From Kitasatospora sp. NBC_00240 (GTDB taxonomy: Bacteria > Actinomycetota > Actinomycetes > Streptomycetales > Streptomycetaceae), in NCBI RefSeq assembly GCF_026342405.1, contig NZ_JAPEMU010000001.1:868001-932000 (forward strand): a DNA stretch of 64,000 bases, given 5' to 3'. The position numbers and the translations under genes are program-made. Positions 14,083-55,623 of the stretch are shown here, in pieces; positions within the stretch are counted from its first letter, which is position 1, and each line of letters starts with the position of its first letter. The notes below the pieces were generated by a model. The model saw nothing but the letters and a program-made list of their open reading frames with translations, did no database searches and was not told the DNA's origin.

Positions 14083-16644
14083 ATGCCATCTCGAACCAAG
14101 CGACGGTTCCGGGCCGTGCTGGCGGCGCTCGTGCCGCTGGCTCTCGCGGTCGCCACCCTCGGCCCCGAGGCCGTGTCGCCCGCCTTCGCGGCGACGCCGA
14201 CGTACACCATCACGACCGGTGCGACCGGTACCTACGCCTACGCCGACGACACGGCGGCGTACCCCTTCATCGACAGCGACGGCAAGTTCTACTTCCAGTC
14301 CTCGCACTCACTGTACGGGGGCAAGGACAGCCGCGCCTGGCAGTTCTGGACCGGGACGGACATCGACACGGGCGTCACCAAGGCCTCGATCTCCTCGACC
14401 CCGGACAACGCCAACACCACGGTGCGCTGCAACAACAGCCCGACCGGCCTGATGTCCAGCTACGACCCGCGTGGCTCCCAGACCACCGGGTACTCCGAGC
14501 GGAACTACTGCGATCTGGTCGGCGTGTGGGTCGACCCGGACACCGGTGACTGGTACGGGGCCGTGCACAACGAGTTCACCCCGTCGCCGTTCGGCGACGG
14601 CCTGCACTACGACTCGATCGACTACGCACAGTCCACCGACCACGGCGCCACGTGGACGATCAAGGACCACATCCTCACCTCGCCGTTCACCACCTGGCGG
14701 GCGAACGACCAGCTGTTCACCACGGCCCCCGACGGCAGCGTCCGCACCGGCGGCGGTCAGTGTCTGGACATCACCGGCGCCGGCACCACCGCCGGCACGG
14801 CCGTCGGCAGGTACGGCTGCACGGGCAACGCCAACCAGAAGTGGACCGTCACCGGCGGCACCCTGGTCAACCCCGCCTCGGGTCTGTGTCTGACCGCCTC
14901 CGGCACCGGCGCCGGCGCCACCTTCACGATCCAGGCCTGCTCGGGCTCGGCGACCCAGCGCTTCACCACGCCCGCCGCCGGGGCCAAGGGGCAGATCAGC
15001 CTCACCGGGGCGCCCGCCAGCTGTGTCGACGCCACCGTCGCGGTCAAGCTGGCCGTCTGCAACGACCCGGCCAAGGACGGCCGCGACCAGTTCCCGAACC
15101 AGACCTACTACTACGGCGACGGCGACCCGAAACTGTTCGTCGACAACGCCTCCGGCTACTTCTACATCTACTACGACACCCAGGTCCTGAACACCGCCGG
15201 CGGCGGCCGGGTCGACCTCGGACACGTCGCGCGTGCCCCGATCTCCGGCAAGTTTGCTCCGTCGTCGTGGAAGAAGTGGTACGGCGGCACCTGGACGCAG
15301 CCCGGCGTCGGCGGCAAGGAGACCGACCTGATCCCGTCCGACGGGACCAGCGCCGGCTACCTCGACGACGCCTACAACCCGCTCAACACCGGGACCACCG
15401 CACAGCAGCTCAGCGCCGGGCAGCTGCCCAGCGCCCCGCCGCTCGCCCGGATGAACGTCACCTTCGACGCCTACCTGGGCAAGTACGTCGGGATGCCGCG
15501 GCCGGAGAACCCCACCACATCCACTCCGCTGCGCATCTACACCACGTCCGACCTCGCCACGCAGAAGTGGACGGACATCGGGACGGTCACCAACCCCAGC
15601 GGTGCCGCCTGGTACCGCTCCGTGCTCGACTCGACCACCAAGACCTCCAACTACCTGATCGGCAAGACCTTCCGCAACTACTGCATGTACAGCTGCACCG
15701 CCACGAGTGGCACCGAGTGGGTCAGCACCACGATCGACACCGACCCGAGCAACCTGCCCGTCCCACCGGTCAGCCCCGGCGCGCCCTACCAGATCGCCGC
15801 CGGCAACGGCCGGTACCTGGACCAGTCCGGGACCGCTCTGACCACCACGGCCGCCGGCAGCACCTCCACCTCGCAGTCCTGGACGTTCGCCCCCACCGGC
15901 GACGGCTTCCTCACCATCACCAACGCCGCCTCCGGCCAGAACCTCGGCGTCAACGACGGCACCAACGCCGGACGGGCCTGGGGTGCCCCGCTCACCGTGG
16001 GCACCGGCACCGGTGTCGGGCGGCAGTGGTTCCTGCAGACCGTCAGGGACGCCAAGCTGCCGGCCGGCAGCTACCGCCTGATCAACCGGTACAGCGGCCA
16101 GGCGCTCAGCCTGACCGCCGGCACCGGCGGCGTCGCCATCGCCGCGCAGCGGGACTGGACCAACCCGGGGACCTCCGGCGACACCCACGCGGTCAACGCC
16201 CAGACGCTCACCTTCCCGGCCGGCTCAGGATCGGCCAACCTCATCCCCACCGGGAACTTCGAGTCCGGCAACCTGACCGGCTGGACCGTCCACAACGCCA
16301 GCGTCGTCACGGACACCGCGGCCCACAGCCCGACCCACGACCTGAAGCTGCAGTCGGCGGCCGGTGACTACGCGACCATGGAGTACACCGTCACCGGGCT
16401 GTCGCCCTACACCACCTACACCTTCTCCGGCTGGGTCCGCGCCGACTCGGGCAGCTCCACCAGCTTCGGCGTGAAGAACTACGGCGGCACCCAGGTCACC
16501 GCCCACACCTCGGCCACCGGCTGGGCCCCGCAGTCGACCACTTTCACCACCGGTCCGACCAACACCTCGGCCACGGTCTTCTGCTACCTGCCGGTCGCCT
16601 CCGCCACATCCACCTGCGACGACCTCAGCCTGACCGTCGGCTGA
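14083..16644 (+). CDS. Secreted beta-propeller protein with two ricin-type lectin modules and a C-terminal CBM
   Basis: 853 residues from the ATG at 14083, chosen because GAGGA is 5 nt upstream and a clean signal peptide follows (cleavage near AFA-AT). Residues about 35-220 and 330-560 together read as a GH43/GH32-like propeller: YPFIDSDGKFYFQSSHS, LVGVWVDPDTGDWYGAVHNE, YGDGDPKLFVDNASGYFYIY, SGAAWYRSVLDS. Residues about 222-330 are a ricin-type trefoil (QCLDITG, NQKWTV, GLCLTAS) spliced inside the propeller. A second lectin module spans about 566-712, and a beta-sandwich CBM begins at NFESGNLTGWTV and runs to the end. Probably a polysaccharide-degrading or binding enzyme; the glycoside hydrolase family is not clear to me. 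Confidence 0.82.
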   Translation: MPSRTKRRFRAVLAALVPLALAVATLGPEAVSPAFAATPTYTITTGATGTYAYADDTAAYPFIDSDGKFYFQSSHSLYGGKDSRAWQFWTGTDIDTGVTKASISSTPDNANTTVRCNNSPTGLMSSYDPRGSQTTGYSERNYCDLVGVWVDPDTGDWYGAVHNEFTPSPFGDGLHYDSIDYAQSTDHGATWTIKDHILTSPFTTWRANDQLFTTAPDGSVRTGGGQCLDITGAGTTAGTAVGRYGCTGNANQKWTVTGGTLVNPASGLCLTASGTGAGATFTIQACSGSATQRFTTPAAGAKGQISLTGAPASCVDATVAVKLAVCNDPAKDGRDQFPNQTYYYGDGDPKLFVDNASGYFYIYYDTQVLNTAGGGRVDLGHVARAPISGKFAPSSWKKWYGGTWTQPGVGGKETDLIPSDGTSAGYLDDAYNPLNTGTTAQQLSAGQLPSAPPLARMNVTFDAYLGKYVGMPRPENPTTSTPLRIYTTSDLATQKWTDIGTVTNPSGAAWYRSVLDSTTKTSNYLIGKTFRNYCMYSCTATSGTEWVSTTIDTDPSNLPVPPVSPGAPYQIAAGNGRYLDQSGTALTTTAAGSTSTSQSWTFAPTGDGFLTITNAASGQNLGVNDGTNAGRAWGAPLTVGTGTGVGRQWFLQTVRDAKLPAGSYRLINRYSGQALSLTAGTGGVAIAAQRDWTNPGTSGDTHAVNAQTLTFPAGSGSANLIPTGNFESGNLTGWTVHNASVVTDTAAHSPTHDLKLQSAAGDYATMEYTVTGLSPYTTYTFSGWVRADSGSSTSFGVKNYGGTQVTAHTSATGWAPQSTTFTTGPTNTSATVFCYLPVASATSTCDDLSLTVG

Positions 16645-16886: not shown

Positions 16887-17963
16887 ATGACCATCACGGC
16901 CGAGCAGCGCCGGGCCCGCATCCTCTACCTCGTCCGCGAACTCGGGACGGTCCGCGTGGTGGATCTGGCCGAGCGCATCGGCCTGGCGGCCGTCACCGTC
17001 CGCCGGGACGTGGCGGCCCTCGCGGACGCCGGGCTGCTGCACCGCTCGCACGGTGCGGTGTCGCTCCCCCGCAGGGAGTCCGTGGCCGGCCGGGTGACGG
17101 GCCAGGACCGGGTGGTGGGCATGCTGGTGCCCACGGTCGGGTCGTACTTCGACGAGATCATCGAGGGCGCCCGGTCCGCCGCCGCGGCGGCGGGCGCGCG
17201 GCTGGTGCTCGGCATCTCCGCCTACGAGTCCTCGGACGACCGCGCCCAGGCGGAGCAGCTGCTCGACGCCGGCGTCGACGGCCTGCTGCTCACCCCGAAC
17301 TGGAAGCCGGGAGGACAACCGGAGAACAGCGCGTGGCTCGCCGGGCTGCGGGTGCCCGCCGTGCTGGTCGAGCGCCGCGCCGCGCCGGAGAGCCCGTTCG
17401 CCGAACTCGACTCGGTCGGCTCCGACCACCACCACGGGGTGCTGGTGGCGCTGCAGCACCTGTCCTCGCTGGGCCACCGCGCGGTCCAGTTGGCCGCGCG
17501 CGACGACACCTGGACGGCGTACCACGTCCGGACGGGCTACCAGGAGGCCGTGGGACTTCTGGGCCTCGAGCCCCGCCCGGTCGTCGGCATCCACCAGCCC
17601 GGCGGCGACATGGAGGAGGTCGCCGTCCGGATCGCCGCGGGCGTCGCGGACGGCGCGCGGGCGGTCCTGGTCCACAACGACCAGGACGCCATCCACCTGG
17701 TGCCGCTGCTGCGCGGCCGCGGTCTGCGGGTGCCGGACGACGTGGCACTGATCTCCTACGACGACGTCTTCGCGGCCCTCGCCGCCCCGCCCCTCACGGC
17801 GGTGGCGCCGCCGAAGCGGGCCGTGGGCTCGGCGGCGCTGGAGCTGCTGCTGCGCCGTCTGGAGAGCGGCCCCGAACTGCCGGTCCACCACGTGGAGCTG
17901 CTGCCGGAGCTGAAGGTCCGCACCTCGTGCGGCGGCGTCGGCCCAAGCGGCGCCGCCCGCTGA
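16887..17963 (+). CDS. DeoR-type HTH fused to a LacI-type sugar-sensing domain (regulator 1)
   Basis: 358 residues, ATG at 16887 with GAGGA 8 nt upstream. Residues 1-55 form a DeoR winged helix (EQRRARILYLV, VVDLAERIGLAAVTVRRDVA, LLHRSHGAVS). Instead of the sugar-phosphate-sensing DeoR C-domain, the remainder is a LacI/GalR periplasmic-binding-like domain (VVGMLVPTVGSYFDEIIEGA, GVDGLLLTPNW, DDVALISYDDVFAALAAPPL, LKVRTSCGG). It would respond to a free sugar rather than a sugar phosphate. The paralog at 26137 is nearly colinear and the two bracket the GH154/ABC locus, which is their most likely target. It ends 10 nt from the convergent isomerase gene. Confidence 0.92.
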   Translation: MTITAEQRRARILYLVRELGTVRVVDLAERIGLAAVTVRRDVAALADAGLLHRSHGAVSLPRRESVAGRVTGQDRVVGMLVPTVGSYFDEIIEGARSAAAAAGARLVLGISAYESSDDRAQAEQLLDAGVDGLLLTPNWKPGGQPENSAWLAGLRVPAVLVERRAAPESPFAELDSVGSDHHHGVLVALQHLSSLGHRAVQLAARDDTWTAYHVRTGYQEAVGLLGLEPRPVVGIHQPGGDMEEVAVRIAAGVADGARAVLVHNDQDAIHLVPLLRGRGLRVPDDVALISYDDVFAALAAPPLTAVAPPKRAVGSAALELLLRRLESGPELPVHHVELLPELKVRTSCGGVGPSGAAR

Positions 17964-17973
17964 ACCACGGCCG

Positions 17974-18753
17974 TCAGGACCGCAGCGCGGCGAGGTACTG
18001 CGCCCCTGGGCCGAGCAGCGCGCCGAACGGCGCGGCGTCCGGGTACCAGGGCGCCTCGTACTCCCAGGACACCCAGCAGTCGGGCGGCAGCAGGCGGACG
18101 CACTCGCCGACCGGGAGGCTGCCCGCGCCGAGCGCCACCGGGGTGAGGTCGGAGCGGTCGACGATGTCCTTGACCTGGACGTAGCCGAGGTGGGGCCGCA
18201 GTGCTCCCCAGGTCGCGGACGGGGTCTCGCCGGCCAGCCGGGTGTGCAGCAGGTCCCACAGCGCGCCGATCGCCGGGTGGGCGACCAGTTCGAGTACCCG
18301 GGCGACGTCGCGCCCGCCGCGGTGGGAGTCGTGGGTCTCCAGCAGGATGCTGACGCCCAGCTCTGCGGCCCGGTCGGCGACCTCGGCGAGGCGCCGGGCG
18401 GCGCGCTGGTCGGCATCGTCGATCCACCCCTCACCACCCTGCGGGAACACCCGGACGTAGGCGGCGCGGAGGTCGGCCGCCAGCCGGAGCTGGTCGAGCA
18501 GCTCGGCGACCACCGGGCCGTCCTCGCCGGGGGCGGCGACGCCGACGTAACCGGCCACGGCGAGCGGGATCAGGCCCGCCCGGTCGAGGGCGTGGCGGGC
18601 GCGGGCGCGCGCGGCGGCGGTCATGTCGGGGTGGACGGGTTCGCCGGGGGCGCAGCGCAGTTCGAGCCCGGCCCAGCCGTGGTCGGTGGCGAGCCGGATC
18701 ACCTCGGCGAGCGGCAGGCCGGGCAGTCCGAGGGTGGAGAACGCGAGTCGCAC
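17974..18753 (-). CDS. Sugar phosphate isomerase/epimerase-like TIM barrel
   Basis: 259 residues of the AP-endonuclease-2/xylose-isomerase-like barrel family. Visible motifs are LAFSTLGLPGLPLAEVI at the N-terminus, WAGLELRC, VRVFPQG near 85, SILLETHDSH with the metal-binding Glu near 150, GALWDLLHT with Asp near 185, and LPVGECVRLLPP towards the end. Members isomerise or epimerise sugars and keto-acids with a divalent metal. The ATG is 6 nt after the stop of the GH154 gene, so they are one operon. That suggests it acts on the monosaccharide released by GH154, perhaps a uronic acid, although the exact reaction is unknown. Confidence 0.85.
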   Translation of the reverse strand: MRLAFSTLGLPGLPLAEVIRLATDHGWAGLELRCAPGEPVHPDMTAAARARARHALDRAGLIPLAVAGYVGVAAPGEDGPVVAELLDQLRLAADLRAAYVRVFPQGGEGWIDDADQRAARRLAEVADRAAELGVSILLETHDSHRGGRDVARVLELVAHPAIGALWDLLHTRLAGETPSATWGALRPHLGYVQVKDIVDRSDLTPVALGAGSLPVGECVRLLPPDCWVSWEYEAPWYPDAAPFGALLGPGAQYLAALRS

Positions 18754-18759
18754 GGTGGG

Positions 18760-20730
18760 TCAGTCCTTCCGACGGACGCTGGGGCCGTCCAGGTCGAGCG
18801 AGGCCTCGTGGGAGCTGCCGTCGGACCAGACCACCCGGATCAGCGCTCCCTCGGTGGACACGGAGGGGCCGTCGAGGGGGCGGGCGGCCGAGCGGGAGAG
18901 CCGGGCGACGGAGACGAAGAGCGACGGTCCGGCACCGGTGCGCCCGGAGAGTACCGGCAGCGCGCAGATCGGGCCGAACGCCGTGCCGGCCGGAACGCGG
19001 ACGGTCCGGGCGGCGGTGTACCCCTCGACCTGTTGCAGGGCGGAGGTGAGCCGGCCGGCCCCGGTCTCGGTGAGCGGGCCGTCGGTCCAGGTCCCCGCCG
19101 CGGCGAGCGGGCCGTCGGTCCAGGTCTCGGCCGCGGTTCCGGCCACCGGCCAGCCGCTGTGCCGGACCTCGGTCCCGGGCGCGGCGCCGGTGACCAGGTG
19201 GGCGTGAACCTCGTCGGCGCCGTGGGCGAGGACCAGCGAGGTCACGGTTACGCCGGGGAGTTCGACCGCGCCGATCCGCGGCCGATGGGCCGAGGCGGCC
19301 CAGCCGTCCCCGGCGCCGAACGGGCGGATCCGGCCGCGCTCGCTGACCTGCCCGTCGACGACCAGGCCGAAGTGGTTGTCCGGAGGTCCGTCGGGCAGTG
19401 GCCCGGTCGCGGTGGAGTAGCCGAGCCGGGCGTACAGCGGTTCGTCGGGCAGCACCTGGTCGGCGGGCTGATCGTCGCTGCCGTGGTTGTGCAGGCGGAC
19501 CAGGCCGTCGGCGACGGTGGACTGGATCAGCCAGCCGGGCTGCGGCAGCGGGTGGACGGCGTCTGTGCGCTCGACCGGCGCGGCTTCCTCGGGTGCGGTC
19601 CAGACCGGGTGGTCCGGCGGCAGCAGCAGGCCGACGAACCCCTTGCTCGCCCAGTACGGCGAGGCGGGGCCGGAGTAGGGCTGGACCAGCGGCGGGTAGG
19701 GGCCGTACCAGCCGAGCGAGAGCAGGCCGTCCGGCTCGGTCGCGCCGCGGTCGAGGAAGTGGCGCAGGACGCCGGAGGCCAGGCGGCGGGTGGCGCCCGG
19801 GGTGAGCGGGCTGCGGCCGGTCAGGGCTCCGGCCCACAGCGGGGCCGCGGCGGCGAACCGGTAGCTGAGCGAGCGGCCCTGGTGCATGGGGGCGCCGTCG
19901 GCACCGAAGGTCCGGGCGTACCCGTCGAGGTGGGCGGCGAGGCGGCCGCCGTAGGTGTCGAGCAGTTCGCGGTCGCCGCTCAGGTGGGCGTGCAGCACGG
20001 GGTAGAGGTGGAACGCCCAACCGTTGTAGTGGTCGAAGGCGCGCGGGCGGCCGTCGGTGTACCAGCCGTCGCCGAGGTACCACTGCTCGATCTTGGCGAG
20101 TCCGCGCCGCACGGCGGCCTCGGCCGCGCCGTCCTCGTCGAGGCCGGCTTCGGCCAGGAAGCCACCCACGGTGAAGGGGAAGAGCCACCAGTTGTTGTCG
20201 ACCGGTGTGTGGTGGAGGGCGCCGGCCAGCCAGGTGCGGGCCCGCTCGCGTACCTGCGGGTCGAGCCGGTCCCAGAGCCAGGGCCGGGTGAGTCGCAGCG
20301 CCAGGGCGATGGAGGCGGCTTCGACCATCGCTTGGTTGCGGTCGCCGATGGCGAGCCAGGAGATCGGGTCGCGGTCGGTCAGCTCGCGGTCGGTGGTGGG
20401 GGCGCGGGTCCCGGCCTCGAGTCCTTGGGCGTACCGGGCGAGCAGGCCCTGCGGGTCGTCACCGCCGGCTCCGGCGATCCGGAAAGCGGCCAGCAGGAAG
20501 GTCCTGGCGTAGCCCTCCAGCCCGTCGGAGCGGGTGCCGGAAATGCTGGGGCGGGGGCCCGGGAGCATGATGAGTGCCTGCTCCGGCCCGGCGAACGGCC
20601 GGACGGCGGCGAGGAGCGCGTCGGCGGCGGCCTCCCAGTGCGACCTGGTCCAGCCCGTGTAGGGGCTGAGTTTGCGGTCCTCCGGCGGGAGCAGGAGGGA
20701 GGCTGCTGAACGTATGACCAAGTGGATCAA
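18760..20730 (-). CDS. DUF2264 protein (GH154, beta-glucuronidase family)
   Basis: About 657 residues. The family core begins LSPYTGWTRSHWEAAADALL and continues with MLPGPRPSISGTRSDGLEGY, SWLAIGDRNQAMVEAASIAL, PVDNNWWLFPFTVGGFLAEA and GWYTDGRPRAFDHYNGWAFH. This is the alpha/alpha-barrel half of DUF2264, placed by CAZy in GH154, with the C-terminal beta domain after about residue 400. No signal peptide is visible, so it works in the cytoplasm on imported oligosaccharides. The start is unsure: no ATG with a ribosome site fits. I chose TTG at 20730; TTG at 20721 or GTG at 20781 are alternatives, and longer frames would run over the operator-like DNA at 20724-20759. It heads an operon with the isomerase and is divergent from the ABC operon at 20982. 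Confidence 0.85.
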   Translation of the reverse strand: MIHLVIRSAASLLLPPEDRKLSPYTGWTRSHWEAAADALLAAVRPFAGPEQALIMLPGPRPSISGTRSDGLEGYARTFLLAAFRIAGAGGDDPQGLLARYAQGLEAGTRAPTTDRELTDRDPISWLAIGDRNQAMVEAASIALALRLTRPWLWDRLDPQVRERARTWLAGALHHTPVDNNWWLFPFTVGGFLAEAGLDEDGAAEAAVRRGLAKIEQWYLGDGWYTDGRPRAFDHYNGWAFHLYPVLHAHLSGDRELLDTYGGRLAAHLDGYARTFGADGAPMHQGRSLSYRFAAAAPLWAGALTGRSPLTPGATRRLASGVLRHFLDRGATEPDGLLSLGWYGPYPPLVQPYSGPASPYWASKGFVGLLLPPDHPVWTAPEEAAPVERTDAVHPLPQPGWLIQSTVADGLVRLHNHGSDDQPADQVLPDEPLYARLGYSTATGPLPDGPPDNHFGLVVDGQVSERGRIRPFGAGDGWAASAHRPRIGAVELPGVTVTSLVLAHGADEVHAHLVTGAAPGTEVRHSGWPVAGTAAETWTDGPLAAAGTWTDGPLTETGAGRLTSALQQVEGYTAARTVRVPAGTAFGPICALPVLSGRTGAGPSLFVSVARLSRSAARPLDGPSVSTEGALIRVVWSDGSSHEASLDLDGPSVRRKD

Positions 20731-20759
20731 TCCATCCAGTAATTTTGACCGAATGATCT
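20724..20759. promoter_or_regulatory. Operator-like sequence between the GH154 gene and the CUT1 ABC operon
   Basis: GACCGAATGATCT at 20747-20759 matches the element at 16828 in all but one of its first eleven positions, and GGATCAA at 20724-20730 repeats the other half-site (TTGATCC). The block is strikingly AT-rich. It lies at the start of the GH154 gene and upstream of the divergent transporter, placed to control both. Confidence 0.5.
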
Positions 20760-20864
20760 GATGATGATGGGCGAAGCCCACTCCTCCGCTTCGTGAGCCA
20801 GTATTGTTACCAGAAAGTGGCCCGCAGGGAGCCGTATCGATTGAGATCACTTGATCCCAACCTC

Positions 20865-20893
20865 TTGACTCCGATCCCATGCGGTCGCAAGAT
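20865..20893 (+). promoter_or_regulatory. Probable promoter of the CUT1 ABC operon
   Basis: TTGACT (20865-20870) and CAAGAT (20888-20893) separated by 17 nt, about 90 nt upstream of the binding-protein start. A TTGATCCC half-site lies just before it at 20851. Confidence 0.5.
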
Positions 20894-20981
20894 GGCCACA
20901 TCGCCGCGCTGGGCCCCCTTCTTCCTCAGCAAACGGCCATCCACTCGGGCATACCGACCCCCCTCCCTCAGGAGCCGTGCC

Positions 20982-22331
20982 ATGTCTACTCCTCGCACCT
21001 CCGGCCGCAGAGCCCTCCGCCTGGCCGCCACGCTCACCGCCTCCGCGCTCTCGATCACCATGCTCGCGGCCTGCGGCAGCTCCGGCAGCTCGGACGCCGC
21101 CCCGGCGAGCGACGGCAAGCCGGTCAACATCACCTTCTGGGGCTGGGCCAAGGGCACCAAGGAGGTCGTCGACGCCTTCAACGCCTCGCACAAGGACGTC
21201 CAGGTCACTTTCGAGCAGATCCCGTCCGGCGTGGCCGGCGGCTACGCGAAGATCTCCGACGCCTCCAAGGCCGGCAACGCCCCCGACCTGTTCAACGTCG
21301 AATACGGTGCGCTGCCGGACTTCGTCAGCCAGGGCGCCGTCCAGGACATCACCAAGCTGGTCTCCGCCGACCTCAAGAAGAAGTACCTGCCGCAGGCCGT
21401 CCAGCAGACCACCCTCGCCACGGCCCAGTGGGGCCTGCCGCTCGATGTCGCCCCGCAGGCCTTCTTCTACCGCAAGGACCTGTTCGACAAGGCCGGCATC
21501 ACCGCCCCGCCCAAGACCTGGGACGAATACCGGGCCGACGCGCTCAAGCTGAAGGCAGCCGACCCGAACGCCCGGATCGGCACCTTCTTCCCGGACGACC
21601 CGGGCACCTTCGAGGCCCTGTCCTGGCAGAACGGCGCGCACTGGTTCACGGCCCAGGGGGACACCTGGAGCGTGGACATCGACGAGCCCGAGACCAAGCG
21701 GGTCACCGACTACTGGCAGCAGCTGATCTCGGACGACCTGGTCCGCGTCCAGCCTTCGTTCAGCCAGCCGTGGACCGCCTCGCTGCAGAAGGGCGAGACC
21801 GCAGGCTACCTCGGCGCGGCCTGGGGCGGCGGCGTGCTGAAGTCCACCCTGGCCACCACCCCCGACGCCTCCGGAAAGTGGGCCGTCGCCCCGGTCCCGA
21901 CCTGGGACGGCAAGCCCGCCAGCGGCATGCTGGGCGGCACCACCTTCGCCGTCTCCAAGAACAGCAAGAAGGCCAAGGCCGCCGTCGAGTTCGCCACCTG
22001 GGCCACCACCACCCCCGAGGGCATCCAGGCCCGCATCGCATCCGGCACCTCCTCGATGTTCCCGGCCGACCCGGACCTGGTCCCGACCGCCAAGGCCGCG
22101 TTCAACACCGACTTCTACGGCGGCCAGGACATCTACTCCGTCTTCATCGACGCCTCCAAGTCGATCCGCGACGGCTGGACCTGGGGCCCGACCATGGGCA
22201 TCACCAACAACGCCATGAAGGACGCCTTCGGCAAGGTCACCCAGGGCGGCACGCTGCAGGCCGGTGTCGAGGCCGCCCAGCAGGGCACCACCGCCGAACT
22301 CAAGAACCGCGGACTCAAGGTCGCCCAGTGA
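20982..22331 (+). CDS. CUT1-type sugar-binding lipoprotein (extracellular solute-binding family 1)
   Basis: 449 residues from the ATG at 20982 (AGGAG 7 nt upstream). The signal ends in a lipobox LAACGS, so the protein is tethered to the outside of the membrane. The mature part starts VNITFWGWAKGTKEVVDAFN, typical of MalE-like oligosaccharide receptors, and has the hinge-region DLFNVEYGALPDFV and GWTWGPTMGITNN. It opens an operon of two permeases and a dehydrogenase. It probably binds an oligosaccharide that the divergent GH154 enzyme then cleaves. Confidence 0.92.
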   Translation: MSTPRTSGRRALRLAATLTASALSITMLAACGSSGSSDAAPASDGKPVNITFWGWAKGTKEVVDAFNASHKDVQVTFEQIPSGVAGGYAKISDASKAGNAPDLFNVEYGALPDFVSQGAVQDITKLVSADLKKKYLPQAVQQTTLATAQWGLPLDVAPQAFFYRKDLFDKAGITAPPKTWDEYRADALKLKAADPNARIGTFFPDDPGTFEALSWQNGAHWFTAQGDTWSVDIDEPETKRVTDYWQQLISDDLVRVQPSFSQPWTASLQKGETAGYLGAAWGGGVLKSTLATTPDASGKWAVAPVPTWDGKPASGMLGGTTFAVSKNSKKAKAAVEFATWATTTPEGIQARIASGTSSMFPADPDLVPTAKAAFNTDFYGGQDIYSVFIDASKSIRDGWTWGPTMGITNNAMKDAFGKVTQGGTLQAGVEAAQQGTTAELKNRGLKVAQ

Positions 22332-23266
22332 CGCACCGCACCACCGGCTCCTCCCGCGCCGCCGCCGTCAGGCGGCGCGGGAGGTACGGGGCCCCCGCCG
22401 TACTCATCGCCCCGTTCTTCATCCTCTTCACGGCGGCCCTGCTCGTCCCGATCGGCTACGCCGTCTACCTGAGCCTGTTCACCGAGCGCCGCTCGGGTCT
22501 CGGCTTCGGCGACGCGAAGACCGTCTTCACCGGCTTCGGCAACTACACCCGGGCTCTCGGCGACGCGGCCTTCCGGGACGGCTTCTGGAACATCGCCCAG
22601 TACTGCCTGCTGTACATCCCGGTGATGATCGGCCTCTCGCTGACGGTGGCCCTGCTGCTGGACTCGGCGCTGGCCCGTGCCAAGCGCTTCTTCCAGCTGG
22701 CCCTGTTCATGCCGCACGCCGTCCCCGGCATCATCGCGGCCCTGGTCTGGACGTACCTCTACACACCCGGCATCAGCCCGGTACTGGACGCCCTGAACAG
22801 CGCCGGCGCGTCGATCGACGTGCTCGGCCACCCGCTGCCCGCCGTGGTCAACATGGCGGTCTGGGAGTGGACCGGCTACAACATGATCATCTTTTTTGCC
22901 GCCCTGCAGGCCCTCCCCCGCGAAGTGCTGGAGGCGGCCGTCGTCGACGGCGCCGGAGCCCTGCGGACCGCGCTCAGCATCAAGGTGCCGCTGATCAGGG
23001 CGTCGATCACGATGGTCGCGCTGTTCACCGTGATCGGCTCGCTCCAGTTGTTCACCGAACCGATGATCCTGCGCGGCTCGGCCCCGGGCGTCACCACCAC
23101 CTGGACACCGAACATGTACGCCTACACCGCCGCCTTCGAGCGCAACGACTACGGCTTGGCCGCCGCCGCCTCGGTCCTGCTCGCCCTCGCCGCAGCGCTG
23201 CTCTCCTTCATCATCACCCGGGCCACCCGGGCCCGCTCCGAGCGCCGGAAGGAGACCCGCTCATGA
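22328..23266 (+). CDS. CUT1-type sugar ABC transporter, permease (MalF-like)
   Basis: 312 residues starting with GTG at 22328, overlapping the stop of the binding protein by 4 nt. Six hydrophobic segments, the first at about residues 24-45 (LIAPFFILFTAALLVP). The conserved cytoplasmic loop reads EAAVVDGAGALRTALSIKVP, the EAA motif that meets the ATPase. No ATPase is encoded nearby; in streptomycetes MsiK usually serves many CUT1 systems. Confidence 0.92.
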   Translation: MTHRTTGSSRAAAVRRRGRYGAPAVLIAPFFILFTAALLVPIGYAVYLSLFTERRSGLGFGDAKTVFTGFGNYTRALGDAAFRDGFWNIAQYCLLYIPVMIGLSLTVALLLDSALARAKRFFQLALFMPHAVPGIIAALVWTYLYTPGISPVLDALNSAGASIDVLGHPLPAVVNMAVWEWTGYNMIIFFAALQALPREVLEAAVVDGAGALRTALSIKVPLIRASITMVALFTVIGSLQLFTEPMILRGSAPGVTTTWTPNMYAYTAAFERNDYGLAAAASVLLALAAALLSFIITRATRARSERRKETRS

Positions 23267-24120
23267 CCGAGCACGCCAAGAAGCGTCCGTGGTCCCTCTC
23301 CAAGGGGGCGGTCAACGCCTCGCTGGTCCTGGTCACCGTCTACACCGTGCTGCCGCTGGTGTGGCTGATCACCGCCTCCGCCAAGAACACCCCCGACCTG
23401 CTCGGCGGCAACACCCTGACCCTGAGCAACTTCCACCTGGGCGACAACCTGCACGCCCTGGCCACCGAGTCCGACGGAATCTACTTCCGCTGGTACCTCA
23501 ACTCCGTGCTGTACGCCGGCGGCGGCGCCCTGCTCTGCGCATTCATCTGCATCTGCGCGGGCTACGCCTTCGAGGTGTACCGGTTCCGCGGCAAGGAGAA
23601 ACTGTTCGGCCTGGTACTGGTCGGCGTCCTGGTTCCCACCACGGCGACCGCGCTGCCGCTGTACCTGCTCGCGTCCAAGATCGGCATCGTCAACACCTTC
23701 TGGGCCGTCTTCATCCCCAGCCTGGTGTTCCCGTTCGGCGTCTACCTCTCACGGATCTTCGTCGCCGGGTACGTGCCCGGCGAGGTCCTGGAGGCCGCCC
23801 GGATGGACGGCGCCGGGGAACTGCGCATCTTCTGGTCGATCGGTCTGCGGATGGTGACGCCCGGCTTCGTCACCGTCTTCCTGTTCCAGTTCACCGCGAT
23901 CTGGAACAACTTCTTCCTGCCGCTGGTGATGCTCTCCAACAACAGGCTGTTCCCGGTCAGCCTCGGCCTGTACGCGTGGAACACCCAGACCCACGCCGAG
24001 CCGCACTTCTACCCCATGGTGGTGACCGGCTCACTGCTCGCCGTCATCCCGCTGGTCGTCGCCTTCGTCGCGCTCCAGCGGCACTGGAAGGCCGGCCTCA
24101 CCGCAGGCAGCGTCAAGTGA
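23263..24120 (+). CDS. CUT1-type sugar ABC transporter, permease (MalG-like)
   Basis: 285 residues, ATG at 23263 overlapping the previous stop (ATGA). Six hydrophobic segments with the EAA loop EAARMDGAGELRIFWSIGLR near residue 170. The partner permease is the preceding gene; together they form the channel for the oligosaccharide bound by the protein at 20982. Confidence 0.92.
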   Translation: MTEHAKKRPWSLSKGAVNASLVLVTVYTVLPLVWLITASAKNTPDLLGGNTLTLSNFHLGDNLHALATESDGIYFRWYLNSVLYAGGGALLCAFICICAGYAFEVYRFRGKEKLFGLVLVGVLVPTTATALPLYLLASKIGIVNTFWAVFIPSLVFPFGVYLSRIFVAGYVPGEVLEAARMDGAGELRIFWSIGLRMVTPGFVTVFLFQFTAIWNNFFLPLVMLSNNRLFPVSLGLYAWNTQTHAEPHFYPMVVTGSLLAVIPLVVAFVALQRHWKAGLTAGSVK

Positions 24121-24161
24121 CCGCCCCCACCGCGCGCCTCGCCGAACCAACGGAGACCCGA

Positions 24162-25220
24162 GTGCCCCAGCAGTCCACCGCCGCCGGGTCCCCGGACCTG
24201 TCCGCCCCCGGCCGGTGCCGCCCACGAGCCCTGCTGGCCATGCATCCGCAGCTCGCCCCGCAGCTGATCGATGCCCAGACCCTGGCCCGGCTCACCGGCC
24301 TCGCCGACCTGGACCCGTCGCTGATCGTCGACGACTTCACCACCCCTGAGGCCGCCGCCGCGCTCGCCGACGCCGAGGTCCTCGTCACCAGTTGGGGCTG
24401 CCCGCCGATCGACGAGGCGGTGTTGGCGGCCGCACCCCGGCTGCGCGCCGTCATCCACGCGGCCGGCTCGGTCAAGCACCACATCACCGACGCCTGCTGG
24501 GAGCGCGGTCTCCAGGTCACCTCCGCCGCCTGGGCCAACGCCCTGCCGGTCGCCGAATACACGGTCGCCGCCATCCTGTTCGCCAACAAGCAGGTCCTGC
24601 GGCTGGCCGCCGAGTACCGCGAACTGCGCGCCCGCCACGACTGGCAGGCCGCCCACCCGCGGATCGGCAACTACCGCCGCACCGTCGGCATCGTGGGAGC
24701 GTCGCAGATCGGCCGCCGAGTCCTCGAACTCCTCCGGCCGTACGACCTGCACCTGCTGCTGCACGACCCGTACGTCGAGGCCGCCGAGGCCAGCGCCCTC
24801 GGCGCCCGCCCGGTCGAGCTCGACGAACTGTGCGAACTCAGCGACGTGGTGAGCATCCACGCGCCCCAGCTGCCCTCCACCCGGCACATGATCGACCGCC
24901 GCCGGCTCGCCTTGATGCCCGACGGCGCGACGGTGGTCAACACCTCGCGCGGCTCGCTGATCGACCAGGACGCACTCGTCCCCGAACTGGTCTCCGGCCG
25001 CCTGAGCGCCGTACTCGACGTGACCTCGCCCGAGGTGCTGGCCGAGGACTCGCCGCTCTACGACCTGCCCAACGTGCTGCTCACCCCGCACATGGCCGGC
25101 TCCATGGGCACCGAACTGCACCGGATGGCCGCCGCCGCGGTGGACGAACTCGCCCGCTACACCGCCGGCCTGCCGTTCTCCCACCCGGTGCTGGCCCAGG
25201 AGATCCACCGCACCGCCTGA
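24162..25220 (+). CDS. D-isomer-specific 2-hydroxyacid dehydrogenase family protein
   Basis: 352 residues from GTG at 24162, preferred because GGAG lies 6 nt upstream; a GTG at 24117 overlapping the permease stop is the alternative. The NAD-binding fold shows GIVGASQIGRRVLELL at about residues 175-190, the catalytic Arg in NTSRGSLIDQDAL near 265, and the catalytic His in LLTPHMAGSMG near 310. The glycine motif is GxSxxG rather than GxGxxG, so cofactor binding may differ. Family members reduce or oxidise 2-keto/2-hydroxy acids. As last gene of the transporter operon it likely handles a keto or uronic acid derived from the imported sugar; the substrate is not known. Confidence 0.85.
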   Translation: MPQQSTAAGSPDLSAPGRCRPRALLAMHPQLAPQLIDAQTLARLTGLADLDPSLIVDDFTTPEAAAALADAEVLVTSWGCPPIDEAVLAAAPRLRAVIHAAGSVKHHITDACWERGLQVTSAAWANALPVAEYTVAAILFANKQVLRLAAEYRELRARHDWQAAHPRIGNYRRTVGIVGASQIGRRVLELLRPYDLHLLLHDPYVEAAEASALGARPVELDELCELSDVVSIHAPQLPSTRHMIDRRRLALMPDGATVVNTSRGSLIDQDALVPELVSGRLSAVLDVTSPEVLAEDSPLYDLPNVLLTPHMAGSMGTELHRMAAAAVDELARYTAGLPFSHPVLAQEIHRTA

Positions 25221-26074: not shown

Positions 26075-26136
26075 TCATTGCGCACGACGCTATCAGCTTC
26101 CGCCCCGATGTCCCGGGCGGGGAGAACAGGGGAGCC

Positions 26137-27204
26137 ATGACCATCACCGCCGAGCAGCGGCGCGCCCGGATCCTCCATGTGGTCCGGGAACTGGGCACGG
26201 TTCGCGTGATGGACCTGGCGGAGCGGATCGACACCGCCCCGGTGACAGTGCGCCGAGATGTCGCCGCGCTCGCCGAGAGCGGCCTACTGCGCCGCTCGCA
26301 CGGGGCCGTCTCAATGCCGCTCGGCACCGCCGCCCCCGTCGCCGCCACCGGCCGCGACCGAGTAATCGGCATGCTGGTCCCCACCGTCGGCTCATACTTC
26401 GACGAGGTGATCGCCGGGGCCCGCACCGCGGCCGCGGCCGCCGGCGCCCGCCTGGTGCTCGGTATCGCCTCTTACGAGTCCTCGGACGACCGCGCCCAGG
26501 TCGACCAGCTGCTGGACGCCGGCCTCGACGGCCTGCTGCTGACCCCCAACTGGCACCCGGGCGGCGACATCGCCGACTCGACCTGGATCCGCGACCTGCC
26601 GGTGCCGGCCGTCCTGGTGGAACGGATCGCCGCACCCGGCAGCACCGCGGCCGGGCTTCCCACAGTCGGCTCCGACCACCACTACGGCGTCCTGCTCGCC
26701 CTGCGCCACCTGGTCACGCTCGGCCACGAGTCAGTCCTGCTGGCGGCCCGCGAGGACAGCTGGACCGCCCACCAGGTGCGTGCCGGTTATGCCGACGCCA
26801 CCGGCCGTCTGGGGCTCGAACCCCGGCCGGTGATCGAGATCCACCGCCCCGGACTCGACACCGACGCCGTGGCCGAACGGATCGCCGCAGAGGCGGCCGA
26901 CGGTGTTCGCGCAGTGCTGGTGCACAACGACCACGAGGCAATCCAACTGACCCCGGCGCTGCGCGCCCGCGGCCTGCGGGCGCCCGAGGATCTGGCGCTG
27001 ATCTCGTACGACGACGTGTTCGCCGCACTGGCGGCCCAGCCGCTCACCGCGGTCTCCCCGCCCAAACGTGCGGTCGGCACCGCCGCTGTGGAGTTGATGC
27101 TCCGGCGCCTGACCGACGGCCCCGGCCTGCCGGTCCACCACGTGCGGCTGCTGCCCCGGCTCAAGGTCCGCACCTCGTGCGGAGGCGATCCCCGCCAGCA
27201 GTGA
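26137..27204 (+). CDS. DeoR-type HTH fused to a LacI-type sugar-sensing domain (regulator 2)
   Basis: 355 residues, ATG at 26137 after AGGGG. It is colinear with regulator 1 throughout: the winged helix with VMDLAERIDTAPVTVRRDVA, the sensor start VIGMLVPTVGSYFDEVIAGA, then LALISYDDVFAALAAQPL and LKVRTSCGG at the end. Differences cluster in the linker and in parts of the sensor, as expected for a change in ligand. Together with regulator 1 it flanks the GH154/ABC locus. Whether both bind the same operators or divide the work is open. Confidence 0.92.
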   Translation: MTITAEQRRARILHVVRELGTVRVMDLAERIDTAPVTVRRDVAALAESGLLRRSHGAVSMPLGTAAPVAATGRDRVIGMLVPTVGSYFDEVIAGARTAAAAAGARLVLGIASYESSDDRAQVDQLLDAGLDGLLLTPNWHPGGDIADSTWIRDLPVPAVLVERIAAPGSTAAGLPTVGSDHHYGVLLALRHLVTLGHESVLLAAREDSWTAHQVRAGYADATGRLGLEPRPVIEIHRPGLDTDAVAERIAAEAADGVRAVLVHNDHEAIQLTPALRARGLRAPEDLALISYDDVFAALAAQPLTAVSPPKRAVGTAAVELMLRRLTDGPGLPVHHVRLLPRLKVRTSCGGDPRQQ

Positions 27205-48509: not shown

Positions 48510-48755
48510 GCGCTGGTGAACGATGCCACGGTCGTGGCCGGTGTCGAGCCGCCCGGCGCGACGGTCTTCCACGGCATGGACCGCGCGATGGTCCGCCGGC
48601 CCGGCTGGGCTGCCCCACTGAGCCTGTGCTCCGCGCGCACCACTTTCTACGAGACCGGCAACGGCGACAACCTCCGCGGCTGGCACACCAACAACGGCGT
48701 GGTCACGTGGTGGGGCTCCGACTTCGGCAACGGGCACTGTTCCGAAGCTCTCTGA
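48510..48755 (+). pseudogene. Polysaccharide lyase family 8 remnant
   Basis: The segment TVFHGMDRAMVRRPGWAAPL, then SARTTFYETGNGDNLRGWHT and NNGVVTWW, is the hallmark central region of PL8 lyases (hyaluronate, chondroitin and xanthan lyases), where the pattern is MDR...HRRP...Y-E-x-x-N-G-E-N-x-x-G-W. About 80 codons are present out of some 750; no signal peptide, N-terminal toroid or beta domains remain, and a stop follows at 48755. Clearly broken. Confidence 0.75.
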
Positions 48756-48842
48756 CCTACCGTCAATCCGTAATGGCTGTCCGGTGCCACCAAGCAGCTC
48801 GCCGACGCGGCGCGCGGGGCGCGGGCCACCTCCAGCCCCGCC

Positions 48843-49034
48843 ATGCCCTGGGCCGGCGGCACCACCCAGCGCTGGACACTGGCCGGCGCCGGCGGCGGCT
48901 ACGTGAAGATCTTCTGCGTCCGGTCCGGGAAGCTCCTTGCGGTGCAAGGCGATGCCGTCGCCGACCTGGCCGCCATCGTGCAGCAGAGCGACTCGGGCGA
49001 CCCGAGCCAGCAGTGGCAGCGGATCGCCGTGTGA
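48843..49034 (+). pseudogene. Ricin-type lectin domain remnant
   Basis: TTQRWTLAGAGGGYVKIFCV, SGKLLAVQGDAVADLAAIVQ and PSQQWQRIAV, ending in a stop, match the last one and a half repeats of a ricin_B/CBM13-like module as found at the C-termini of secreted hydrolases. It may be the tail of the same broken gene as the PL8 fragment 90 nt upstream. Confidence 0.6.
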
Positions 49035-51930: not shown

Positions 51931-52372
51931 ATGAACCGACGAACGTTGCTTGGTATGACAGGCACGCTCGGCGCCGCGGTCGCCCTCGGCGTGGTGGACC
52001 AGGCGCCCGCCGCGGCGGCGACGGCTGCGGACCAGTTGCCGAGCCGGGCCGACGTCATCTCGGCCATGACGCTGGTGAACGACTACTGGATCAAGGGAAA
52101 CACGAACCCCGGCACCAATCAGTGGGCCCCGGCCACCTACCACTGCGGCAACATGGCGCACTACCGGCTCACCCGGACCCAGAAGTACCTCAACTACACG
52201 GTGGCGTGGGGAAAGCAGAACAACCACGGCATCGACGGCGGCACCACGACGCGAAACGCGGACAGCCAGTGTGCCGGACAGGTCTACCTGGACCTGTACC
52301 AGGAACACGGACGACTCGAACCCCGCTCCGGCACCTTCGCCACGAGCAGCAAGAGCTACTGGACGACTGGTT
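51931..52372 (+). pseudogene. Truncated GH105/GH88-type unsaturated glucuronyl hydrolase
   Basis: It starts with a Tat-type signal (NRRTLLGMTGTLGAAVALG). GH105 sequence follows: VISAMTLVNDYWIKGNTNPG, NQWAPATYHCGNMAHYRLTR and TTTRNADSQCAGQVYLDLYQ, which includes the region of the family's catalytic Asp. Homology ends near residue 130 and the frame closes at 52479 in unrelated Pro/Arg-rich sequence. About two thirds of the enzyme is missing, so it cannot be active. Confidence 0.75.
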
Positions 52373-52781
52373 CACCGCCGCGCCGACCACCGGCGACACG
52401 GCTGCGGCCACGACGCAGGCCGCCGGTGGTGCACCGCTGGCGGGGAGCCCGAGTGACACGACCGTCTTGGCGCTGGTGATCGGGATGTCGGCCCGCCGCC
52501 CGGTGGCGGTGTGGGCCAGCGTTCCGGTCGGTGTGTTGACGCGCAGTCAGCGGGGCCGTTCGCGTGAAGAACGAGAGATCGCGGACAGAAATCTCTGTTA
52601 TCCGAGCCGGCCTCGCGGATCTCCTGAAGCGGGAGACGAACGCAGCTCCCCGCGCCCGGGCTACCGACACCCCCGCGGCCCTCTCCACAGCGCGAAGCCT
52701 CATGATCTCCAGTCCTCGCCACGAACCGAGGCTGGTGACACCCGAGGCCCGCCGATCTGAAGCAAATGAGGAGAAACGCAC

Positions 52782-54666: not shown

Positions 54667-55623
54667 ATGGCTACCACCTCCTCGTCCCGCACCACGGTCG
54701 AGATCGCCTCGCAGCCGACCTGTTGGAGGCAGGCTGCCGAGTCCCTCGCCCAGCACAGCGCGGCCCTGCCCCGTCGCGGCGAGCGCGTCGCCGTCGTCGG
54801 CTGTGGCACCTCCTGGTTCATGGCCCAGTCCTACGCCGTCCTGCGCGAGAGCGGCGGACACGGCGTGACGGACGCCTTCGCCGCTTCCGAGTTCCCGCAG
54901 GGACGCGGCGGTTACGACCGGATCCTGGCGATCAGTCGCTCGGGCACCACCACCGAGGTGCTGGACCTGCTCGACCGGGCCCGCGAGGCGGGCGTGGCCA
55001 CAGCCGCGATCACCGCCGATCCCGCGACGCCGATCATGACCGCCGCCGACGCCGTGGCCGTTCTGGACTTCGCCGACGAGGAGTCGGTGGTGCAGACCCG
55101 CTTCGCCACCACCGTGCTCGCGCTGCTGCGCGCGCACCTGGAAGCCGAGGGCGCCCTGCCGGCCGGCGTGCGGACCGTCATCCGGGCGGCCGACGATGCC
55201 CAGCGGGCCGTCGAGGCGCCGCTCGCCGCCGAGCTGATCGGCGCCGAGCAGTTCACCTTCCTCGGCACCGGCTGGAGCTACGGGCTCGCTCTGGAGGCCG
55301 GCCTGAAGATGCGCGAGGCGGCCGGCGCCTGGACCGAGGCCTACCCCGCGATGGAGTACCGGCACGGGCCGATCAGCATCACCGGCCCCGGCCGGGCGGC
55401 CTGGATGTTCGGCGCCCTGCCGGCCGGGCTGGCCGAGGACATCGCCCGGGTCGGTGGCACCCTGGTCGCCGACTCCCAGGACGCGCCCGAGCAGCTCGAC
55501 CCGCTGGCCGACCTGGTCCGGGCCCAGCGCCTCGCCGTCGCGCTGGCCGAGGCCGCCGGCCTCGACCCGGACCGCCCGCGCAACCTCACCCGCTCGGTGG
55601 TACTGGAGAACACTGGTGCGTGA
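54667..55623 (+). CDS. SIS-domain sugar isomerase (AgaS/GlmS isomerase-like)
   Basis: 318 residues from the ATG at 54667 with AAGGAG 7 nt upstream. Two SIS folds: VAVVGCGTSWFMAQSYAVLR (about 40-60) and FTFLGTGWSYGLALEAGLKM (about 197-216), with the phosphate-binding AISRSGTTTEVLDLL and the sugar-binding EYRHGPISITGPGR. Family members include GlmS isomerase domains and AgaS, which turns galactosamine-6-phosphate into tagatose-6-phosphate. The aldolase and PfkB kinase downstream favour an AgaS-like role. First gene of a five-gene operon. Confidence 0.88.
   Translation: MATTSSSRTTVEIASQPTCWRQAAESLAQHSAALPRRGERVAVVGCGTSWFMAQSYAVLRESGGHGVTDAFAASEFPQGRGGYDRILAISRSGTTTEVLDLLDRAREAGVATAAITADPATPIMTAADAVAVLDFADEESVVQTRFATTVLALLRAHLEAEGALPAGVRTVIRAADDAQRAVEAPLAAELIGAEQFTFLGTGWSYGLALEAGLKMREAAGAWTEAYPAMEYRHGPISITGPGRAAWMFGALPAGLAEDIARVGGTLVADSQDAPEQLDPLADLVRAQRLAVALAEAAGLDPDRPRNLTRSVVLENTGA

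Follow-up and report, generated by a model that had tools for sequence, protein, structure and literature searches.

A D-2-hydroxyacid dehydrogenase accompanies GH154 proteins in Actinomycetes: a Kitasatospora locus with a probable glucuronate dehydratase

The locus described here lies in a stretch of 64,000 nucleotides from Kitasatospora sp. NBC_00240 (hereafter the window), in which the genes of a DUF2264/GH154 protein (GH154; 18760..20730, minus strand, 656 aa) and of a xylose-isomerase-like TIM-barrel protein (ISO; 17974..18753, minus strand, 259 aa; AP_endonuc_2, PF01261, 84 bits) diverge from those of a CUT1 importer and a D-2-hydroxyacid dehydrogenase homologue (HDH). The plus-strand genes are those of the solute-binding lipoprotein (SBP; 20982..22331; SBP_bac_1, 155.9 bits; lipobox seen by eye), permease 1 (22328..23266; BPD_transp_1, 50.1 bits) and permease 2 (23263..24120; BPD_transp_1, 43.5 bits), each permease gene overlapping the preceding gene by 4 bases, and then HDH (24162..25220, GTG start), whose matches to 2-Hacid_dh_C (PF02826, 161.4 bits) and PF00389 place it in the D-2-hydroxyacid dehydrogenase family. 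One SBP_bac_1 protein and two BPD_transp_1 permeases, all recognised by profile, make up a CUT1 importer; such importers share an ATPase. All the genes named in the initial annotation are present and arranged as it described, the ISO gene falling just outside the segment it covered, which starts at 18760.

Two regulator genes combining a DeoR-type HTH with a LacI-type sensor flank this set, both on the plus strand: REG1 (16887..17963; HTH_DeoR 44.5, Peripla_BP_3 108.8 bits) and, on the other side, REG2 (about 26125-27204). The divergent promoter region (20731..20981) contains a palindrome-like site, AGATCACTTGATC, at 20844-20856 with a TTGACT element just downstream, an arrangement repeated 5' of SBP in three other loci (L078, L089, L220) and reversed in L045/L121. 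The motif TTGATCC is shared by the promoter of REG1 itself and that of GH154/SBP; judging from sequence, REG1 is a putative regulator of the unit. In the locus of K. paracochleata, the closest named relative (L121), no counterpart of REG2 adjoins HDH. REG2 was rejected as a member of the unit on this ground, and the bracketing by two regulators, which the initial annotation pointed out and which does exist here, is therefore local. A secreted ricin-B-lectin/CBM4_9 protein (14116..16644, plus strand), whose N-terminal part had no family match, is a possible extracellular partner; the K. paracochleata locus has, at its edge, a protein 81% identical to it.

The GH154 protein matches PF10022 over profile positions 1-351 of 353 (353.7 bits against a cut-off of 25, E 1.4e-105). 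Its start codon is the gene caller's choice, the mechanical ORF extending to 20901, and no signal peptide was seen by eye. The AlphaFold2 model (pLDDT 89.8) consists of an N-terminal helical barrel of the beta-glucuronate dehydratase type and a C-terminal beta-rich domain (about 390-656). When residues 18-380 were compared with solved structures, Z was 35.4, 34.1 and 33.6 to 8oi4, 9o4u and 9nwf, respectively, and the next match was GH105, at 20.8. With the two structures of the dehydratase BcGDH (9o4u and 9nwf), the rmsd was 3.4-3.5 A over 358-359 residues, and eight of eight BcGDH active-site residues (N176, N177, W178, F181, Y229, R285, Y289 and Y354) are identical in the aligned GH154, where they correspond, in the 656-aa form, to N179, N180, W181, F184, Y235, R286, Y290 and Y352, all invariant in 32 sequences except N179. 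Two further active-site residues of BcGDH, E74 and R78, lie outside the aligned range and were paired by the motif LEGYAR alone with E72 and R76, which are also invariant in the 32 sequences. Both the fold and the active site of GH154 thus match those of a proven dehydratase. According to the accessible part of Alvarez et al. 2025 (PMC12269599), clean BcGDH has no glycosidase activity, both BcGDH and BT3677 have dehydratase activity, no GH-type catalytic side chains were observed near the bond, the 4,5-unsaturated end made by BcGDH is then removed by a GH88 enzyme, and a reclassification of this family of over 6000 members is proposed. The release of free glucuronic acid by GH154, assumed in the initial annotation, is hard to reconcile with these data, and we think that the GH154 of this locus, as modelled, probably dehydrates glucuronic acid rather than cutting it off. 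Some reports count against this reading: 8oi4 was described as a beta-galactosidase and BT3677 as a beta-glucuronidase. GH154 genes still appear as beta-glucuronidases in a table of PMC13260240, for example, a paper that in the text available also speaks of a dehydratase.

HDH, and not the known hydrolase, is the constant companion of GH154 in Actinomycetes; GH154 shares it with PL8 lyases, which produce chain ends of the same kind. With HDH called at E <= 1e-60 to the window's protein (7-20 candidates scored per genome), it was found in all 74 of the Streptomycetaceae genomes sampled that carry GH154 or a PL8 lyase and in 3 of the 27 that carry neither; the counts are not fully independent of phylogeny, and linked genes are gained and lost together. 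None of 20000 within-genus shuffles matched this association (G038 counted as GH154-positive, three genomes without a genus label left out), while the controls KduI/IolB and GH88/105 reached their own values in 9387 and 14622 of the 20000, respectively. A fewest-changes count, which has no shuffled control, gave 22, 6 and 22. As for physical linkage, 37 of 89 Streptomycetaceae GH154 copies have HDH no more than 15 kb away (0.54 expected under random placement) and none has GH88/105 at such a distance, and PL8 lies that close to HDH in 16/78 cases and to GH88/105 in 5/78, never to both, all these counts excluding five short GH154 fragments (the second piece of G041, G038, two in G096, G050), ten PF07470 rows of at most 39.2 bits and the window's PL8 remnant. 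Of 18 GH154 genomes sampled from other Actinomycetes families, 17 have HDH, against 5 of the 159 others, and GH154 lies within 15 kb of HDH in 11/27 cases and of GH88/105 in 3/27, none with both (PF07470 rows below 40 bits dropped, one GH154 fragment, G513, kept). Eight of these 18 genomes carry GH88/105, usually unlinked, so that a hydrolase is available in them; seven of the eight also have HDH. The exception among the 18, G318, has no HDH match, and its GH154 sits beside GH88, KduI, PfkB, KDPG aldolase and importer genes in a canonical GH88-KduI-type locus (L202). Genome G281, which carries GH154, gave no HDH match; this counts against our best explanation, as does the availability of a hydrolase in the eight genomes above. 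HDH also stands without nearby GH154 or PL8, which again counts against it: alone in L206 and L209, and in L210 and L211 accompanied by CUT1 genes and by what looks, by eye, like a GH43 gene.

The set is also conserved as a unit. Among the best 80 of 576 GH154 loci, a sample biased to near relatives, 57 carry HDH, and 47 combine HDH with SBP and the two permeases, all at >=38% identity to those of the window; taken separately, the permease and SBP counts in these 80 are 52, 52 and 51 with weak matches included and 47, 47 and 48 at >=38% identity. HDH immediately precedes GH154 on the same strand in 24 of them, with a 4-base overlap, as called, in 14. This recurrence indicates that the arrangement is not due to chance. 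The view of the locus as a self-contained catabolic unit is supported for HDH, which belongs with GH154, and not for REG2.

The solved structures nearest to HDH are phosphoglycerate dehydrogenases and a glycerate dehydrogenase/glyoxylate reductase. R263 and H310 are found in 24/24 aligned homologues and residue 291 is Glu in 21 and Asp in 3; we take Arg263/Glu291/His310 to be the catalytic Arg/Glu/His triad. W78 and G102-x-V104, kept in 24/24, presumably differ from the usual reductase pattern. The TIM-barrel model of ISO (pLDDT 93.1) has Z of 24.9-29.0 among the 50 structure matches listed, mostly sugar isomerases and 3-epimerases (29.0 to Art22, 27.0 to D-psicose 3-epimerase and IolI), and hydroxypyruvate isomerase is not among these 50. 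Its E139, D167, Q193 and E231, kept in 5/5 aligned sequences, follow what we believe to be the Glu/Asp/Gln/Glu pattern of hydroxypyruvate isomerase. ISO is present in just 5 of the best 80 of 576 GH154 loci and in 6/80 of another locus set (the two sets repeat some genomes; L045 = L121); it also turns up next to HDH in two loci that lack GH154 (L208 and L235), and AP_endonuc_2 genes adjoin HDH without GH154 in distant Actinomycetota (L208, L212, L213, L214). ISO was rejected as a core step on these locus counts and is a lineage-restricted accessory. From the unusual uronate route of isomerase and dehydrogenase suggested earlier we thus retain the hint of an unusual route, and not the isomerase as an essential step.

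The canonical unsaturated-uronate route (GH88/105 plus KduI) was not found in the window's genome (G000): a whole-genome profile search returned, for GH88/105, only a truncated GH88 remnant (PF07470; 51931-52479), and KduI (PF04962) had no match. The lack of an intact GH88/105 gene bears on a partner for GH154 and says nothing against its own activity. The absence of uxaC, uxuB and kdgK from the locus, noted earlier, was borne out. GH88/105 references had no matches in the best 80 of 576 GH154 loci. All-against-all clustering revealed no third gene tracking HDH-GH154 throughout, either among the 45 clusters listed for 80 loci or among the 30 listed for 59 loci plus the window, and a shared third gene was rejected as the missing hydrolase because no recurrent neighbour listed behaves in this way. 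Those that do recur in the clustered loci are importer, regulator, HDH, PL8, GH2, GH43, GDSL and GH38 genes, a heparinase II/III-like protein, a phosphodiesterase-HAD fusion, SIS, aldolase and SDR proteins. The remaining clusters were taken by eye for housekeeping neighbourhoods.

We tentatively favour, with somewhat less than even confidence, a route of CUT1 import, GH154 dehydration and HDH action on the resulting keto acid. The CUT1 system would import an oligosaccharide bearing a beta-glucuronide, and intracellular GH154 would dehydrate its terminal beta-D-glucuronyl residue to a 4,5-unsaturated uronyl end. A further enzyme would split off this end as 5-keto-4-deoxyuronate (DK-I/DEH), an alpha-keto acid, and NAD-dependent HDH would consume this acid or its direct product, replacing the KduI-KduD pair; ISO would be an accessory of some lineages. 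The substrate and activity of GH154 here, the bond-cutting step, the chemistry of HDH and the role of ISO are what we infer. The route has a hole, since no hydrolase for the unsaturated end was identified. Furthermore, D-2-hydroxyacid dehydrogenases usually reduce the carbonyl adjoining the carboxylate, which on DK-I would yield 4-deoxyuronate, a compound that KDPG-type aldolases cannot split, so that HDH would need an unusual regiochemistry or another substrate. In the portion of PMC8778563 available, the DEH reductases known so far belong to the SDR, beta-HAD or AKR proteins, which also counts against HDH as one of them. An unlikely variant would make a single protein sufficient: the two-domain GH154 would dehydrate terminal GlcA, water would then add at C5 with release of 5-keto-4-deoxyuronate, and HDH would be a new class of DEH oxidoreductase replacing KduI and KduD and also serving PL8 products, so that glucuronide use in Actinomycetes would be independent of GH88/105.

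Other explanations have to be weighed against this route. The GH154 dehydratase could work with an unrecognised hydrolase, DK-I being oxidised to 5-keto-4-deoxyglucarate, whose cleavage would give pyruvate and tartronate semialdehyde; from the latter ISO (hydroxypyruvate-isomerase-like) and HDH (hydroxypyruvate-reductase-like) would produce D-glycerate. The ISO residues, the solved relatives of HDH and the AP_endonuc_2 genes beside HDH in four loci all speak for this scheme, but we consider it rather improbable: no aldehyde dehydrogenase or fitting aldolase is conspicuous among the recurrent neighbours listed, ISO is lacking in most HDH-GH154 loci, and the W78 and G102-x-V104 pattern of HDH does not look like that of the usual reductases. 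The proposal made in the initial annotation, that GH154 is a true beta-glucuronidase freeing GlcA and that ISO and HDH form a shortcut uronate route, has in our opinion a small chance of being correct, and was rejected as first choice on the dehydratase-type fold and the residues kept in the window's GH154. A D-2-hydroxyacid dehydrogenase is also a poor candidate for fructuronate reduction, the ketone not adjoining the carboxylate. Six Streptomyces strains were tested for beta-glucuronidase in an enzyme panel whose substrate is reportedly artificial. All were negative, which weakly disfavours a glucuronidase; these strains have 1-4 genes of GH30_5, GH43_24 and GH154 pooled, the table being silent, in the part of PMC11475409 available, on which carry GH154.

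Finally, the unit might serve neutral sugars such as beta-galactosides, HDH being a general accessory of CUT1 operons. The deposition of 8oi4 as a beta-galactosidase and the LacZ-type GH2, GH43 or GDSL genes adjoining GH154 in 18 of the best 80 of 576 loci would fit, but HDH is present in just 3 of those 18 and tracks GH154 and PL8 across genomes, unlinked cases included, and we regard this explanation as highly improbable.

Among the open-access papers listed in our searches, we saw none linking GH154 to a D-2-hydroxyacid dehydrogenase, and the name DUF2264 had no match there. Should the family consist of dehydratases, some partner would be required to take the unsaturated residue off for its more than 6000 members. 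The association of HDH with both GH154 and PL8 points to a branch of uronate catabolism not yet described, with HDH as the gene to assay.

Among known systems, the closest is BcGDH, the beta-D-glucuronate dehydratase of Bacteroides caccae PUL25, which shares with the window's GH154 its catalytic-domain fold and all mapped active-site residues at 24-25% identity in the structural alignment; the window's protein differs in having an extra C-terminal beta-rich domain and in sitting with HDH and an ABC importer, BcGDH being found with GH88 (PMC12269599, part available). The founding member BT3677, also from Bacteroides and described in the same source as a dehydratase acting on 1-O-methyl-beta-D-glucuronate, is a two-domain form like the window's GH154. 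The canonical GH88/GH105-KduI-KduD-KdgK-Eda pathway would go through the same presumed intermediate, and such a gene set surrounds GH154 in G318, whereas the window's genome has the GH88/105 remnant only, no KduI match, and HDH instead. The oligosaccharide dehydratase P29_PDnc of ulvan degradation (PMC8511951, part available), although unrelated in primary structure to the BcGDH-type enzyme, follows a similar strategy of dehydration, according to the accessible text of PMC12269599.

The D-2-hydroxyacid dehydrogenase homologue of this locus (HDH) is a near-obligate companion of GH154, and of PL8, in the sampled Actinomycetes, where it alternates with the GH88/KduI route as the partner of GH154; this is the strongest new result of our analysis. 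Of 101 Streptomycetaceae genomes, 74 carry GH154 or PL8, and every one of these has HDH (E <= 1e-60), versus three of the 27 with neither; shuffles within genera equalled the value of 74 in none of 20000 trials; for the controls KduI/IolB and GH88/105 they equalled the observed value in 9387 and 14622 of 20000 trials, respectively. Of 89 GH154 copies, 37 have HDH within 15 kb (random placement would give 0.54) and none has GH88/105 that close, while PL8 is so linked to HDH in 16 of 78 cases, to GH88/105 in five and to both in none. A first set of 80 Streptomycetaceae GH154 loci (79 with a GH154 match in the gene calls) has HDH within five genes of GH154 in 31. In the best 80 of 576 GH154 relatives, HDH is found in 57 loci, the combination of HDH, SBP and both permeases of the CUT1 importer (each at >=38% identity) in 47, the TIM-barrel protein ISO in just five, and a match to GH88/105 reference sequences in none; HDH stands immediately 5' of GH154 on the same strand in 24, with a 4-base overlap, as called, in 14 of these. 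Genomic context changes at least 22 times on each FastTree tree (124 HDH and 163 GH154 proteins, some genomes being included more than once), and the HDH-GH154 link is therefore not a single inherited event.

An independent check on 177 Actinomycetes genomes from other families gave HDH in 17 of the 18 with GH154 versus five of the 159 without. Of 27 GH154 copies here, 11 have HDH within 15 kb (10 of them within 3 kb), three have GH88/105 that close, and none has both; eight of the 18 genomes also have a GH88/105 gene somewhere. No HDH match turned up in the remaining GH154 genome, G318; its locus L202 combines GH154 with GH88, KduI, PfkB, KDPG aldolase, an importer, a LacI-like regulator and, by eye, an SDR, and looks like the canonical unsaturated-uronate pathway taking the place of HDH. 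Beyond Actinomycetes, GH154 and HDH co-occur in G130; G281 gives no HDH match, and its GH154 is on a contig of just 6 kb.

Two other protein types were observed near GH154. A heparinase II/III-like protein occurs in L053, L077 (PF07940, 27.8 bits), L080, L091, L093, L110 and L202, adjoining GH154 in L077, L080, L091, L093 and L202, and in none of the best 80 of 576 relatives; it is a possible exo-lyase partner of GH154. GH38 alpha-mannosidase-type proteins occur in pairs near GH154 and HDH in L095, L100 and L114, which suggests GlcA-mannose glycans in some strains.

In the Kitasatospora genome (10.4 Mb; window C1:868001-932000), GH154 (18760-20730) and the AP_endonuc_2 protein ISO (17974-18753) are encoded on the minus strand; pointing away from them on the plus strand are the genes for SBP, permease 1, permease 2 and HDH, with 4-base overlaps at SBP/permease 1 and permease 1/permease 2. 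Two related DeoR-HTH/LacI-sensor proteins, REG1 (16887-17963) and REG2 (about 26125-27204), flank them. All genes named in the initial annotation are present and arranged as it described. The closest named relative among the best 80 of 576 is Kitasatospora paracochleata (L121; GH154 85% identical). A second GH154 gene of the same genome, 72% identical and 78 kb off (L041, C1:800000-819900), has regulators of REG1 type on both sides, and neither importer nor HDH within the 20 kb examined. The divergent promoter carries AGATCACTTGATC with a TTGACT element just downstream, an arrangement found also 5' of SBP in L078, L089 and L220, and reversed in L045/L121. TTGATCC also precedes REG1, both in the window and in L045/L121, L078 and L133; it occurs 13 times in the window (3.15 expected), but since only three copies are in promoters of the unit, this excess alone proves little. 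The glycan-rich window also encodes, at its far end, a GH84-type NAGidase with F5/8 domains (61289-63481).

What does GH154 do? A model of the window protein built from 32 sequences (pLDDT 89.8) is nearest to 8oi4, labelled beta-galactosidase, and to 9o4u and 9nwf, which are the beta-D-glucuronate dehydratase BcGDH of Bacteroides caccae and its inactive mutant (Z 35.4, 34.1 and 33.6); the next, a GH105, reaches only 20.8. The window protein shares all eight BcGDH active-site residues that the alignment covers; seven of them do not vary among the 32 sequences, nor do the E and R in the LEGYAR motif. According to Alvarez et al. 2025 (PMC12269599), clean BcGDH is without glycosidase activity and removes water from terminal GlcA, leaving a 4,5-unsaturated residue that is then a substrate of GH88; BT3677 likewise has dehydratase activity, and GH154 is proposed to be a dehydratase family. 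BT3677 is also described there with an extra beta-rich domain, as predicted for the window protein (about residues 390-656). Fold match, conserved active-site residues and these published activities thus make dehydratase the likeliest function of the window GH154. The premise that it is a glucuronidase releasing glucuronic acid is not supported, given what is published of BcGDH and the retention of the dehydratase residues; the uronate theme, on the other hand, is supported.

HDH also occurs away from GH154, with PL8 and CUT1 permeases in L204, L205 and L207. L204 further has, by eye, an SIS protein and a class II aldolase, whose window counterparts (59-60% identical) belong to a group, also named by eye, of SIS protein, ROK-type kinase, PfkB-like kinase and class II aldolase (54667-58328); the PfkB-like frame is apparently split near 57000. 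In distant genomes HDH adjoins AP_endonuc_2 proteins (L208, L212, L213, L214), its neighbour in L201 having no such match. It stands with CUT1 and a GH43-like gene in L210 and L211, and alone in L206 and L209, and so is not exclusive to GH154/PL8. A type I phosphodiesterase-HAD phosphatase fusion (domains tested in L207, 7992-9548) recurs alongside HDH and CUT1 genes, in many cases with PL8 as well (L204, L207, L224, L226, L234, L239). DUF993 proteins (L201, L213, L214; the L201 copy by likeness to that of L213 only) and an FMN-oxidoreductase-type protein (L201, L213) are near HDH in distant Actinomycetota.

The sole PF07470 (GH88/GH105) match in the Kitasatospora genome is a truncated frame (51931-52479; 40.1 bits, profile positions 14-92), a profile search of this genome found no KduI/IolB, and a PL8 frame without stops is at C1:8267623. 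A strong PF07470 match is absent in 52 of 67 GH154-bearing Streptomycetaceae genomes. The window also holds a PL8 remnant (48516-48869), which has two stops inside the matched stretch. This remnant and the truncated GH88/105 frame, both about 25-30 kb from the locus, are perhaps a decayed unsaturated-uronate set.

PL8 lyases yield a 4,5-unsaturated glucuronyl end, the product type that GH154, as a dehydratase, would share, and this is our main reason for placing HDH downstream of such a residue. An oligosaccharide would be imported by the CUT1 system, as the transporter type suggests; GH154 would likely dehydrate its terminal GlcA; the unsaturated residue would have to leave as 5-keto-4-deoxyuronate (DEH), possibly through GH154 itself; and HDH would consume DEH or its product. 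Reduction beside the carboxylate, however, would leave a product with no obvious exit, and HDH may therefore reduce the other carbonyl of the keto acid, or work on a three-carbon product. If HDH does act on DEH, it would be a new class of DEH reductase, because those known so far are SDR, beta-HAD or AKR proteins (PMC8778563).
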